From the IMG/VR virus record IMGVR_UViG_3300017917_002279, positions 1-26,680 of that record: 26,680 bases of DNA; one strand, given 5' to 3'. A model generated the notes under the pieces. The model was not told the DNA's origin and did not search any database. It saw nothing but the letters and a program-made list of their open reading frames with translations. The translations under genes and the position numbers were made by a program. Below are positions 22,801-26,680 of this stretch, in pieces (the first letter of the stretch is position 1; every line of letters starts with the position of its first letter). Origin of the DNA: a virus.

Positions 22801-23234
22801 CTTTTAATTGCTTCTCTTGGTTCAAGAGTTTTAATTGAAGCAAGAGTTTTTTTCATAAAATCCTCAGCAGTAATGGCCTCATCATAAGCATACTTAACAA
22901 ATTCATTTATAGAGTCCATCTCATCAAGAGTCTCCATAAGACTTTGAAGATTTTTAAGCTCAGCTATTTTATCTGACTTAGCACTAATTTCAGTTCTCTC
23001 AAGATACTGTATTTTATTTTCAACATATACCCTAAGTCTGTTAGTTAGTGTGGTAAAGTTATTTGTATCAGCTTCTTCTTCAGTTTCATAACCTTCTCCT
23101 GTTTCTCTAGTGTTTGAATACTCTGCCCCGGAATCAAATCTTTTGGTCCAAAGTTCCATTGCTAGATCTTTGTTACCATTTGCTTCTGCAAGGATATCTT
23201 TCCACTCTTTACTATTATAATTTGGACAGCTCAT
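19887..23234 (-). CDS. Giant protein (1115 aa), putative virion-packaged or ejection (polyvalent) protein
   Basis: A 1115-residue minus-strand protein. I start it at ATG 23234 (MSCPNYNSKEW), which overlaps the upstream stop by one base as TAATG. A GTG at 23240 would add two residues but is less likely. It is mainly long charged helices with coiled-coil-like runs, then a region with FDQSVLQRYALGRLVVMYRK and a single hydrophobic helix (about residues 975-995, EMAFIISSTALVMILKSM) followed by DDDDEEE. Large helix-rich proteins with late membrane segments are typical of phage polyvalent or internal virion proteins ejected with DNA. The gene ends at the bidirectional terminator. A virion location is inference; no enzymatic motif was found. 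Confidence 0.7.
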   Translation of the reverse strand: MSCPNYNSKEWKDILAEANGNKDLAMELWTKRFDSGAEYSNTRETGEGYETEEEADTNNFTTLTNRLRVYVENKIQYLERTEISAKSDKIAELKNLQSLMETLDEMDSINEFVKYAYDEAITAEDFMKKTLASIKTLEPREAIKRLTILQDYANNFNILDDISKADVTEYFSKPVSGITERPESDVTAQEMITYAITTRNEIKNKILSEGIPLMADLLLEYAPSSVKDKVQDQLDALQRRIDNISASTKLSDERKAEKIQGLRNQMDEYRNFTLDKQKLVNTLRTVSSDQTLVDYLMSPLISSPDSALSLFAVALKTELEDARIKDIAIQRKLFKAFDEYTKSAPATRDNPAAFNAGIYEIINVPVEKPNGEYKRDVNGDIVYMERAAFVQKYDISKFKTSESMFWKSLGPKPTEKEALDAWYKKVSEWYSKNKKPLSAEERQEIIDQKKKELRKRLITQEEYDAWVESVVTTDAQGNQIFMRELTQPSDDYISDKWKEMYDENDHPKNPKGKYHQALTEVYFAQQELLPETQRQGYFLPSVLKTKGERLIANAIKAGKTEVKEAFTFTANDYEYLNSSIAGDDALKTIPVKFSAPMDASEVSLNLIRSVLMFSQSANSFNALNKMHGEIKLFKTIIGDRKIAMTNSKGRPIMDAVARKLGITEYIKQNGMDYSEMHLNAFIDMVVYGEMRKREEIFGVNLAKITDSIMGYSAVTTLALSSIKGIANNLQGNIQLAIEAASSEFMDFKNLTAGKAFYFKSMPGFLADFGKPIPESLGGRLIEEYDPMQGEFKDEYGKRISATVANKLFSQSTLFLNLHLGEHEIQVSTLYALMDREKVIDNETGEEITLLKAYEKYGVDEIYEKTNFTKKQKIELQNRLHALNKRLHGVYNSFDQSVLQRYALGRLVVMYRKYLVPAYKRRFKKKGMDQELGSFTEGYYRTFWNTVIQDLRNYEFNIKKNWANYSAFEKAQIRRFLAEMAFIISSTALVMILKSMADDDDEEEMKKNAIYNHLLYQAIRMQSETKQYLPLYGARDMWRIVKSPSAVITSIDKTTKFINQAFISIYDADARYYKRATGQWEKGDNKTWAYFLKMMGLNGYDFNPAEAVKGFESTFR

Positions 23235-26200
23235 TAGCACATATTTTTATTGATTCTTACCATGATTTCATTTAACTCAGATTCAAAGTTAATATTTTCT
23301 AGTTTGTCTATTTCTTCATTGATGTCAATACCTTTTTCTGCAAGTATCTCATCTAACCTATAAGCTTTAATTTGTGATCTAAGATTATTAATAATTTCAG
23401 CAACTCTTTTATCACTTACAGGAATTAGTGGTTCATCTATTGAAACTATATCTCCAGTTTGTAAGTTTATATTACGAAGATAAAGAGTTCCTGTCTCAAC
23501 ATCAACAAGATTGTATAAATTATTTGGATTTAATACATACTTGCTAGTAAAGGTTCCACTATTATATATAAATTCTTTAGGTAATGCTCCTTTAGTTTCA
23601 ACAAGCTTTTGGTTGAAAGCAGCAATAACCGGATTGTTTTCTGGATTTAATTTTTGCGCGGCACCAATTTCATCTTTAATTTCTCCCATTGGTTTAACAT
23701 AATAGATATATCTAGCTGACTCACCAGAAATAAATTTTTGAGAGAACTTATTATTTAATTGAAAGTCAGACCAACTTTTAAATCCTTCTGCCTTTGCAAA
23801 ATCATCTTTAGATCTTACATATGATTGCTTTGTGTTTTCATCTGTGATGACAACATTGTTACCAACTACAACACCTTTACCTAAATATTTAAGTTGTACT
23901 TGTTGAATACCACCAATAGTATATACTCCATCTGTAAACAGTGCTGTTCTATTTGTTATAACCTTTGTCCCATTCATAATTTTGGCAACATTGCTATCAT
24001 CCATTGGTAGTTCAGCTGCAGCTTTTGATGCAACAGTTGGTCTCCCTTTAGTTAATTGCTCAAGAGTAATTGATGATGTAACATTATCATCAGGAGTTCT
24101 TACTGGTTTAGATACTTCTTCTGTAGTCTGAGAAAGTGGTCCCGAGTTTTTAACAAGATAAACATAGTCTCTTGCTCTTGATACAGCAACATATCTTAGT
24201 TGTTGTTTTACTATACTATCAAACTTGGAGTTATCAATAGTGTCTAAGAGAATTAATACTTTATTATATGTTCCACCTTGAGATTTATGTATTGTGTGCG
24301 CATATCCATAATCTATTGTTTTCTTTATTGCAACTGCACCATAATCATTATATTGGTCTTCCATAAAACCAACTTCTTTTTTTAATTGGTACATCATTCC
24401 AAAGTACATTCCTCTTGTTCTTTTATCTGTAGCGTTTTTACCTTTTCTTGCTAGTTCACTTAGTGCGGCTATTAGTTTTTTTGATGCATTTTCATTTACA
24501 GGTCCTTTTTTTGCAATAAATACAAAAACCGGTTTTGAGTCTTTTTGTAATAAATCTTCTAAAACTACATCATAACCTATAAATTCTAGTTTTCCTGAAG
24601 ATGTACCAGTGTCAATTGTTTTTTTAGTTTCTCCTGATGTATTTACTACTTTATAATCACCTGAATTATATATGTCATATGATTCTGTGTTTCCACCAAA
24701 GTTATCATAGCCCATTAAGATTTCACCATTAACTAATTGAGTACTATCATCTACATTATAAAGATTTTTTCTAGCCAAATCATTTAATGTTTTGATGCCA
24801 TTATTTTTAGCTGAGAGCATTCTAAAATGTAGAAAGTCTTCAGTTTCTACCATCTCTTGTAGAGACTGTCCGATTACTTGGTTTGTTCTTGCTGAATCAG
24901 ATATATACTCTACACCTCTTCCATCTACTTCATCAGAGATGCCCGATAGTGGCTTACCCTCTCTTAGATTAGTTGACTCAGCTAAAATAGGATTATCACC
25001 TGTTCTTTCAACTTTTGTTAGTTGAAGTTTTACTGGTTTTTCTAAAGCAACAGATAGAGCAGTTTGTTTTTTTGTAGGGTCAACAGGTGCAAGCTGAGCT
25101 GGATCACCCATGTAGATTACTTTAATTTTAAACTCTTTCTTAAATTTTTCAATAAACTCATACAATTGATCTGTTATCATTGATGATTCATCAATAATTA
25201 AATAATCTCCATATTCTACAATAGGTTTACCAGTTTGTTCTGATTGTAAGTTTTCAACTGTTAATTGACCATTAGTTAAATCTACAATTGGATTTAATCC
25301 AAATGCTTTATGCAATGTAATTACATCTGCGTTAGGATTATTTAACTTAGTAACTGCATTAGCCCTATGTGTTGGTGCAGAGTATTTAGGCATTATACCA
25401 TTGGCCGATAAGTACTTATCAAATAAAGACATGATAGTAGTCTTCCCTGTACCTGCATAACCTATGAGTGCAATTTCATTATTGTATTCTTCAGGGTTAT
25501 TATAAAATTTCTCAAGACCAAGTAATGCTGCTTGCTGTTGTTCATTTAATTTAAATGGAACAGGTATTGGAGTACCATCTGCAAATGTAAAGATGTAGTC
25601 ATCAGTTGTTTCAGATACAGGAACAGTAGGTTGCGTTGGACTAATAGTATTATTAGCAAGTTGTAAGATACCAATTCTATTACCATCATTACTTGCCCAG
25701 TTCATTTTCTTATTAGAAACTAAAGATATGATAGTGTTATTTGGTGTTACTAGATAATCTTGACCTCTATAGTTAACTATTTTAGCTATCTCAGGTCTAA
25801 TACCTAAATTCTTTTCAGCAACTGATTTTTTAGCATTTACTCCTTCTAAGTTTGGATTGTATATTTGCCAAGTACCATTAGTATTTTGTTTAGTAACTAT
25901 CCAAATATTGTTATCAAAGTTTACATATCTACCTGGTTCAAGTGTTGGTTGTACTTGTACTATTGGAACATTGTTATAATTAATAGGAGCTGCAGTAGAT
26001 TGAGTAGTTGGAGTTGCAAATGTTTTAGCATATACATCTCTAATAGCTTGTCTACCTATCTCAGTTTCATTTGTACTACTTCCTATACCTGCATAGTTTT
26101 TAGTCAATACGGGAATATCCGTTTTTACAAAGTCATTTGTTGAAGAATCCCATTTATACCAACCAGTATCATAGCCATAACTTGAATCTTGGTTAAATAT

Positions 26201-26680
26201 GTAAACAGGTTTATTAAATAATATTCCACTTGCTACAGCATAACCTGTACCTCCTTCAACAATTGGATGGTTTGTATTATTTTGATAACCTTTTCTACCT
26301 TTAATACCAGGAGCCACAATTTCAGAAATAGCAAAGATGCCGTCAGCTTTAGCTGCTTGCATCATATCTCTTCTAACCAATTTACCTGCATATGTATCTT
26401 TAGACAGAATACTTCTACCAAGCCATGTGCGTGTTGCATCATATCTAGATTCAAGTTTATCTTTTGTAGCCTGATCTAGTTCATCATATGACTTTACAGT
26501 ATATACTCTATGTTGTGTTACTCCAAAAGCTTTACCATCTTCTTCCCAATAAGTATCATATTTTTTAGCTCCTCCGTGGTAATTAGTAAACTCTGCAGGA
26601 TTATTAGATACTGTAGGTTGAGTAGAAGGTCTGCCTGATACAAACTTTTTAAATCCTTCTATATCTTGTTTACTTCCTAA
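23234..26680 (-). CDS. Giant multidomain protein: SLOG, SF1 helicase, ASCH-like (5' end outside window)
   Basis: The frame stays open to the right edge, so the 5' end is missing; 1148 residues are visible. Reading from the N-terminal side, a SLOG nucleotide-binding domain (about 26020-26593) shows FTNYHGGAKKYDTYWE and, late, YAGIGSSTNETEIGRQAI. Two small beta-type domains follow (about 25660-25950). Then comes an SF1 RecD/Dda-like helicase (about 24146-25549): Walker A GYAGTGKTT, motif II DESS (25181-25192), GDPAQL (25091-25108), HKSQGGTY and VAVSRAR (24170-24190). An ASCH-like domain with NGTKVITNRT (about 23690-23983) and a helical tail end it. It is coupled to the next gene by TAATG. A virion-packaged polyvalent role is likely but inferred. 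Confidence 0.8.
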   Translation of the reverse strand, partial: LGSKQDIEGFKKFVSGRPSTQPTVSNNPAEFTNYHGGAKKYDTYWEEDGKAFGVTQHRVYTVKSYDELDQATKDKLESRYDATRTWLGRSILSKDTYAGKLVRRDMMQAAKADGIFAISEIVAPGIKGRKGYQNNTNHPIVEGGTGYAVASGILFNKPVYIFNQDSSYGYDTGWYKWDSSTNDFVKTDIPVLTKNYAGIGSSTNETEIGRQAIRDVYAKTFATPTTQSTAAPINYNNVPIVQVQPTLEPGRYVNFDNNIWIVTKQNTNGTWQIYNPNLEGVNAKKSVAEKNLGIRPEIAKIVNYRGQDYLVTPNNTIISLVSNKKMNWASNDGNRIGILQLANNTISPTQPTVPVSETTDDYIFTFADGTPIPVPFKLNEQQQAALLGLEKFYNNPEEYNNEIALIGYAGTGKTTIMSLFDKYLSANGIMPKYSAPTHRANAVTKLNNPNADVITLHKAFGLNPIVDLTNGQLTVENLQSEQTGKPIVEYGDYLIIDESSMITDQLYEFIEKFKKEFKIKVIYMGDPAQLAPVDPTKKQTALSVALEKPVKLQLTKVERTGDNPILAESTNLREGKPLSGISDEVDGRGVEYISDSARTNQVIGQSLQEMVETEDFLHFRMLSAKNNGIKTLNDLARKNLYNVDDSTQLVNGEILMGYDNFGGNTESYDIYNSGDYKVVNTSGETKKTIDTGTSSGKLEFIGYDVVLEDLLQKDSKPVFVFIAKKGPVNENASKKLIAALSELARKGKNATDKRTRGMYFGMMYQLKKEVGFMEDQYNDYGAVAIKKTIDYGYAHTIHKSQGGTYNKVLILLDTIDNSKFDSIVKQQLRYVAVSRARDYVYLVKNSGPLSQTTEEVSKPVRTPDDNVTSSITLEQLTKGRPTVASKAAAELPMDDSNVAKIMNGTKVITNRTALFTDGVYTIGGIQQVQLKYLGKGVVVGNNVVITDENTKQSYVRSKDDFAKAEGFKSWSDFQLNNKFSQKFISGESARYIYYVKPMGEIKDEIGAAQKLNPENNPVIAAFNQKLVETKGALPKEFIYNSGTFTSKYVLNPNNLYNLVDVETGTLYLRNINLQTGDIVSIDEPLIPVSDKRVAEIINNLRSQIKAYRLDEILAEKGIDINEEIDKLENINFESELNEIMVRINKNMC

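Follow-up and report, generated by a model that had tools for sequence, protein, structure and literature searches.

The effector tail of a giant protein from a virus fragment and its probable origin from a crAss-type virion RNA polymerase

The locus described here raises the question of what kind of protein would combine a SLOG domain, an SF1 helicase and an ASCH-like domain in one polypeptide. The window, i.e. the whole stretch of DNA that was analysed, is the entire 26,680-base IMG/VR record, which is itself a virus fragment, and the true N-terminus of the giant protein therefore lies outside of it. An ORF scan gave a minus-strand frame of 1148 aa (23234-26680) that contains no internal stops, is open at the window edge and has a flat G+C and GC3 along its whole length. 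A preliminary description had read this frame as a single protein running in from the window edge, and this reading was borne out. The motifs quoted in that description were all found, and in order. The positions in the frame are HGGAKKYDTYW 35-45, GGTGYAV 143-149, NYAGIGSS 195-202, GYAGTGKTT 407-415, DESS 497-500, GDPAQL 525-530, HKSQGGTY 798-805, VAVSRAR 831-837 and NGTKVITNRT 903-912. While its domain calls were right, the description had missed the RNA polymerase, and the ADP-ribosyltransferase (ART) remnant at the edge. It had also overlooked that the tail behaves as a cassette region and ends in a cysteine. On the plus strand of the window lies a replication block that encodes a DNA polymerase, an exonuclease and an ATPase. 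The minus-strand features are:

23234..26680, minus strand: C-terminal 1148 aa and stop of the giant, almost certainly a crAss-type virion RNA polymerase (RNAP)/polyvalent protein (open frame; alignment to the relative G001; RNAP in the ORF of relatives)
26630..26680, minus strand: end of an ADP-ribosyltransferase (ART-PolyVal-like), cut by the window edge, LGSKQDIEGFKKFVSGR (alignment to G001)
26012..26611, minus strand: SLOG domain, apparently circularly permuted, residues 24-223 (profiles and AlphaFold model)
25646..26005, minus strand: beta-rich linker, residues 226-345, possibly small SH3-like domains (predicted strands, pLDDT about 30-69)
24146..25558, minus strand: Dda/RecD2-type SF1B helicase with the full motif set, residues 375-845 (profile matches and motifs)
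23672..24013, minus strand: ASCH-like domain, residues 890-1003 (weak profiles, Foldseek, conserved residues)
23237..23638, minus strand: conserved C-terminal domain, residues 1015-1148 (profile matches)
23237..23239, minus strand: codon of C1148, the last residue and sole cysteine of the 1148 aa
19887..23240, minus strand: next gene, 1117 aa, homologue of gp49/g065, with a single cysteine at residue 5 (VLMSCPN)
23226..23228, minus strand: N-terminal cysteine codon of the next gene (C5, or C3 if the ATG is the start)

Relation to crAss-type virion RNA polymerases

The part of the giant that precedes the window can be seen in relatives. In G001, an IMG/VR relative of 91.6 kb, the giant ORF starts with MACSLNRDQ and spans at least 3,862 aa; residue 1 of the window frame aligns with its residue 3445, implying a full length of about 4,592 aa (about 4.6 kaa). 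Relatives carry the frame about 3,400 aa further upstream, into an RNAP, and the motifs HEAWH and DFDID both occur in the G001 giant. A profile of the RNAP core made from 12 giants matched 6vr4 (phi14:2 gp66) with an E-value of 7.5e-66; the homologous core of phi14:2 gp66 and crAss001 gp50 extends over about 760 positions including the DxDxD motif. Among the matching genes from named phages, several bear the label RNA polymerase or RNAP catalytic subunit. The arrangement is found undivided in L107/L117 and L104, where RNAP core, SLOG, helicase, ASCH-like and C-terminal domain follow each other in this order within one ORF, and in the closest relative, L101 (84% in the DNA polymerase), a single ORF holds the RNAP core together with an ASCH/C-terminal tail of 56% identity. 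Relatives bearing the same tail were checked for a DxDxD-containing RNAP core on the same chain, and it was present. From the read-through in the relatives and the match to 6vr4 it is concluded that the window frame is almost certainly the tail of a crAss-type virion RNAP, seen here through its relatives, with its own RNAP part outside the record. More specifically, it is probably the C-terminal quarter of a phi14:2 gp66-type virion RNA polymerase with roughly 4,600 aa and an exchangeable effector tail.

The gene neighbourhood is that of a crAss-type RNAP block. Directly downstream of the giant lies the homologue of gp49/g065 (179 bits against crAss001 gp49, 103 bits against phi14:2 g065), which also adjoins the polymerase gene in phi14:2 and crAss001 and is syntenic in L101, L104, L107 and L111 with 47-55% identity. 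A break of the frame that places SLOG and helicase parts in different genes had been named in advance as an observation that would speak against a single protein; both parts lie in one frame here and in the relatives. It could still be argued that the window ORF represents a shorter gene in its own right, starting near the TTG at 26380 or elsewhere internally, whose product is late, intracellular and not part of the virion. Indeed, the window stops inside the frame, and in L029 and L080 the C-terminal domain is split off as a gene of its own of about 307 aa. However, residue 1 of the window continues the ART module of G001 and G002, and the ORFs of L101, L104, L107 and L111 read through from the RNAP into the same tail. 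Because of this read-through the separate gene was set aside as very improbable, and the window frame is regarded below as the tail of the polymerase.

A search with the tail among named phages gave no matches. The giant is also considerably larger than its named counterparts, as gp66 has 2,180 aa and gp50 2,412 aa compared with about 4,600 aa implied here, including the added effector tail. Partial parallels exist among GenBank giants from crAss-like phages: cr50_1 gp059 and cr118_1 gp14 combine the RNAP core with a C-terminal Dda helicase in one gene, and cr109_1 gp53, cr130_1 gp79 and cr272_1 gp23 combine it with a SLOG domain, while the combination of SLOG, helicase and ASCH was not found among these five. 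Their GenBank names are 'DNA helicase', 'exonuclease V', 'DprA-like' or 'hypothetical protein'; NC_055868 gp059, NC_055872 gp14, NC_055892 gp53 and NC_055901 gp79 are named after the tail module, and the polymerase is hidden.

Two further observations were made on the giants of other relatives. In IMGVR_UViG_3300044953_000102 (L003 and L022) the giant gene, which has a different tail, extends across both contig ends, and the record probably represents a whole genome in circularly permuted form. The giants of L014, L015, L203, L026 and L027 contain many in-frame stops, which were TAG where checked and would fit a recoding of stop codons in these phages.

Modules of the tail and their exchange

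The claim of a full SF1 helicase motif set was confirmed by the ordered motifs and by a clear similarity to Dda. The helicase matched PHROG 325 ('Dda-like helicase') with 3.5e-71, Pfam AAA_30 with 2.8e-19 and T4 Dda in the PDB with 4.7e-16. Of the two small beta domains proposed between SLOG and helicase (residues 226-345), the richness in beta strands could be reproduced; the AlphaFold confidence is low in this part and the domains are therefore only loosely supported.

The SLOG assignment likewise holds. It is supported by profiles in native and un-permuted order, derived mostly from relatives, and by a confident AlphaFold model of residues 24-223 (pLDDT mostly above 90). When the window SLOG and ASCH segments were used alone, nothing significant was found in Pfam, NCBIfam or PHROG, and a PDB sequence search with the SLOG and ASCH profiles gave no match, the un-permuted SLOG reaching DprA at an E-value of about 1 only. 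Foldseek with the SLOG model found no significant match in the PDB either, which is as expected of a permuted fold whose model has a floppy end. The conserved blocks are in the order SGGAxGxD, GGTG and FAGIGTR, which looks like a circular permutation. Indeed, in native order Pfam DprA was matched by 7 of 70 rows (best 3.7e-3) and cpYpsA by 11 of 70, while once the last block had been placed first DprA (PF02481), the best-scoring family, was matched by 11 of 14 (best 2.5e-6). PHROG 768, which matches these SLOG domains, is labelled DprA-like. The window SLOG has kept GGTG and carries the changes S35H, G40K and R202S, a set of H, K and S found in its subclade, the usual S, G and R being present in 65, 61 and 66 of 70 aligned sequences. 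Since three motif residues are changed, its ligand or activity may differ, and the domain may be either inactive or altered in function.

One scan of IMG/VR yielded 179 SLOG relatives, of which 80 were kept. Among the nonredundant loci about 25 SLOG domains are free-standing, about 30 are part of a crAss-type RNAP ORF, 2 lie within N4-type virion RNAPs, and 17 belong to ORFs that are cut or of another kind. The RNAP-linked count is 32 minus L103 and L105, whose profile matches were rejected because they fall on the small beta domain and not on a SLOG. The same SLOG family is found in the N4-type polymerases of Klebsiella phage Pylas and Alteromonas phage PT15-A5, which resemble the crAss giants as injected giant proteins with few or no cysteines. 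The N4-type RNAP is however an unrelated single-subunit polymerase, and its SLOG is internal whereas that of the crAss giants is located in the C-terminal tail. Two N4-type RNAPs with an internal SLOG (L016 and L072) contain no cysteines over about 3,500-3,800 aa.

The ASCH-like domain that had been proposed is supported as well, though more weakly than the other domains. Pfam ASCH gave weak matches in 7 of 12 rows, with the window sequence itself below thresholds. The top-probability Foldseek neighbours were 5y6c (ZmASCH) and 2dp9 and 1t62, which we take to be ASCH-type proteins, with probabilities of 0.54-0.72 and E-values of 0.26-0.64 that are not significant. Four residues (K906, T909, R911 and E965) are invariant in 12 of 12 aligned sequences. 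They correspond to K21, T24, R26 and E74 of YqfB, the first three by a profile alignment of 14 columns only and the Glu by eye, so that the GxKxxTxR motif and the Glu of YqfB recur at corresponding places. YqfB needs these four residues for the hydrolysis of N4-acetylcytidine, and its His70, conserved in YqfB-like proteins, has a tenfold effect on activity (PMC6972931). The position of His70 is occupied by F or other residues in the ASCH-like domain (by eye), for which reason the domain was not filed as a member of the YqfB family; the overall similarity is also too low for family membership. Judged from the four residues, a YqfB-like amidohydrolase is a possible, though doubtful, identity of the domain.

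Comparison of close pairs indicates that the tail of the giant is a cassette region with exchangeable modules. These comparisons are based on metagenome assemblies, in which chimeras are possible, and several independent pairs agree. L103 and L104 share 96.1% identity over 2,282 aa, the extra stretch of L104 being no more than the SLOG domain. In L117 and L118 (88%), the position of the L117 SLOG is taken in L118 by a module of about 147 aa that is unrelated to it; SLOG is lacking from the tails of L103 and L105/L118. In addition, L101, L111, L112, L114 and L116 combine RNAP and ASCH-like domain without SLOG and without this helicase, L101 having another ASCH-like stretch and a HEAAH motif at the place of SLOG and helicase. 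In L031, RNAP, SLOG and helicase are followed by an AlkB-like oxygenase (PF13532, 1.2e-21). G001 and G002 are nearest to the window in SLOG and differ past it, with repeats such as GSVKPGVDELFESNPELANQ separating the modules. The L118 module that takes the place of SLOG (residues 3103-3249, GGLDFLNKSTHTMGTGRW) has no match in Pfam or PHROG, and the tail of L031 contains a second ASCH-like stretch (GERTATTR) after the oxygenase.

Terminal cysteines of the giants and their partners

The last ~137 aa of the frame form a domain that closes off the C-terminus of giants whose tails otherwise differ; strong profile matches always end 0-2 residues from the C-terminus, and there are a few weaker internal copies. 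A cysteine is present within the last 10 residues of 37 of 39 nonredundant giants with a closed end (the exceptions to the terminal pattern are L025 and L044) and within the first 12 residues of 35 of 36 next proteins, compared with 13 of 94 other ORFs of these loci that have one in the last 10. The bodies of the giants are otherwise depleted of cysteine, with a median of 0.03% versus 1.03% in the other ORFs, although cr130_1, cr272_1, L046 and L052 have more internal cysteines. Where the C-terminal domain forms a gene of its own (L029 and L080), cysteines are found on both sides of the new junction too.

The same pattern can be recognized in the named phages. In phi14:2, g067 has one cysteine (residue 1797 of 1797), g066 two (3 and 2179 of 2180) and g065 one (3); in crAss001, gp47 has one (2339 of 2341), gp50 three (5, 1334 and 2404 of 2412) and gp49 one (5). 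Four terminal hits under random placement correspond to a binomial P of about 1e-9 per phage, a value that is descriptive as the windows were picked after the pattern had been seen. It has been shown that the crAss001 tail is disulfide-stabilised, and the cargo passing through it is thought to unfold partly (PMC10172136). The cysteine pattern suggests that end-to-end disulfide joints may keep the ejected proteins in order. Our proposal, which we put forward tentatively and at somewhat less than even confidence, is that the virion RNAP proteins could form a covalent train with disulfide joints in the order gp47-gp50-gp49 (here from C1148 to C5 of the next protein), which would be uncoupled in the reducing host cytoplasm and in which the RNAP would tow the exchangeable, putatively anti-host effector tail. 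A literature search on crAss together with disulfide or cysteine returned no report of such a joint; the phi14:2 RNAP structure paper (Drobysheva 2021) may mention cysteines.

We give slightly more weight, an even chance, to the terminal cysteines serving metal binding, arising as a by-product of gene coupling or aiding packing rather than forming joints. The disulfide link is deduced from the cysteine pattern, and as the genes are adjacent in most genomes, a cause at the nucleotide level is conceivable. On the other hand, crAss001 gp47 is encoded on the opposite strand and not upstream of gp50, yet keeps its single C-terminal cysteine, and the depletion of cysteine from the bodies points to protein chemistry.

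Delivery and possible function at entry

The giant had been suspected to be a polyvalent, virion-delivered protein, and this is indirectly well supported as RNAP homologues were detected in virions by mass spectrometry. The notes of the phi14:2 record cite MS/MS for g065-g068, and crAss001 virions contain gp47, gp49 and gp50 (PMC10172136). By analogy with these homologues, delivery by the virion is highly probable. Polyvalent proteins as described in PMC5512222 are large, multidomain and likely injected and carry ART and zincin-type motifs, as is the case here: an HExxH motif and ART-like modules are present in the G001/G002 giant, of which the window holds the ART end only. The G001 residues preceding the equivalent of this end match PF18760 with 1.6e-4, under the gathering cut-off. 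In contrast, the text of PMC5512222 does not contain SLOG, Dda, ASCH or crAss, and the scaffold here is an RNA polymerase.

Most likely the giant is a polymerase that would enter the host with a helicase and modules for handling signals or nucleotides in tow. It would be packaged in the capsid with its partner proteins, threaded through the tail before or along with the DNA, and refolded in the host, where the polymerase would transcribe early genes. The helicase would open the incoming DNA or strip bound proteins off it for the polymerase; an action on entering phage DNA is somewhat favoured. The SLOG, together with the ART, would bind or process immune signals of the NAD/ADP-ribose type before phage genes are expressed, and the ASCH-like domain would bind or deacylate modified cytosine nucleotides or RNA. 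That the SLOG acts on a host nucleotide signal is plausible at best, and we would not call it probable.

Alternatively, the tail may serve the phage's own nucleic acids, with a DprA-like SLOG acting on single-stranded DNA, helicase and ASCH active in recombination or the start of replication, and the fusion to the RNAP ensuring packaging. T4 Dda has a role in replication and recombination, and both the label of PHROG 768 and the scores of the un-permuted SLOG point to DprA. For replication, however, a free intracellular helicase would do, and its fusion to an injected polymerase in several lineages argues for a role at entry. Moreover, in the parts of PMC9503650 that treat viral SLOGs, most are classed as YpsA-like within an NAD/cADPR-related class and regarded as likely counters to NAD-derived signals. 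This alternative is thus considered rather unlikely.

The same parts of PMC9503650 note sporadic fusions of SLOG and SF1 helicase in viruses and propose a sensor-switch role for them. Applied to the giant, SLOG would switch the attached helicase or RNAP on or off upon binding an immune nucleotide. As in those fusions, SLOG lies beside an SF1 helicase in one phage protein; unlike here, the passages concerned mention neither crAss nor a virion RNAP context. SLOG comes, goes and changes place without regard to the helicase, sitting in front of the RNAP core in some cases and behind it in others, and an autonomous module fits this mobility better than a fixed regulator, suggesting that a sensor is unlikely, more so than service to the phage's own nucleic acids.

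Our literature search on crAss together with SLOG found nothing relevant. If the proposed reading is true, the injected RNAP would be a carrier of swappable enzymes for counter-defence and for DNA handling, at work before the first phage gene is read. That one SLOG family has been fused repeatedly to virion polymerases of two unrelated kinds would turn the question of which immune signal has to be met at minute zero into a testable one. With the cysteine pattern it could be tested, concretely and at low cost, how several proteins of 150-500 kDa pass in order through a narrow tail.
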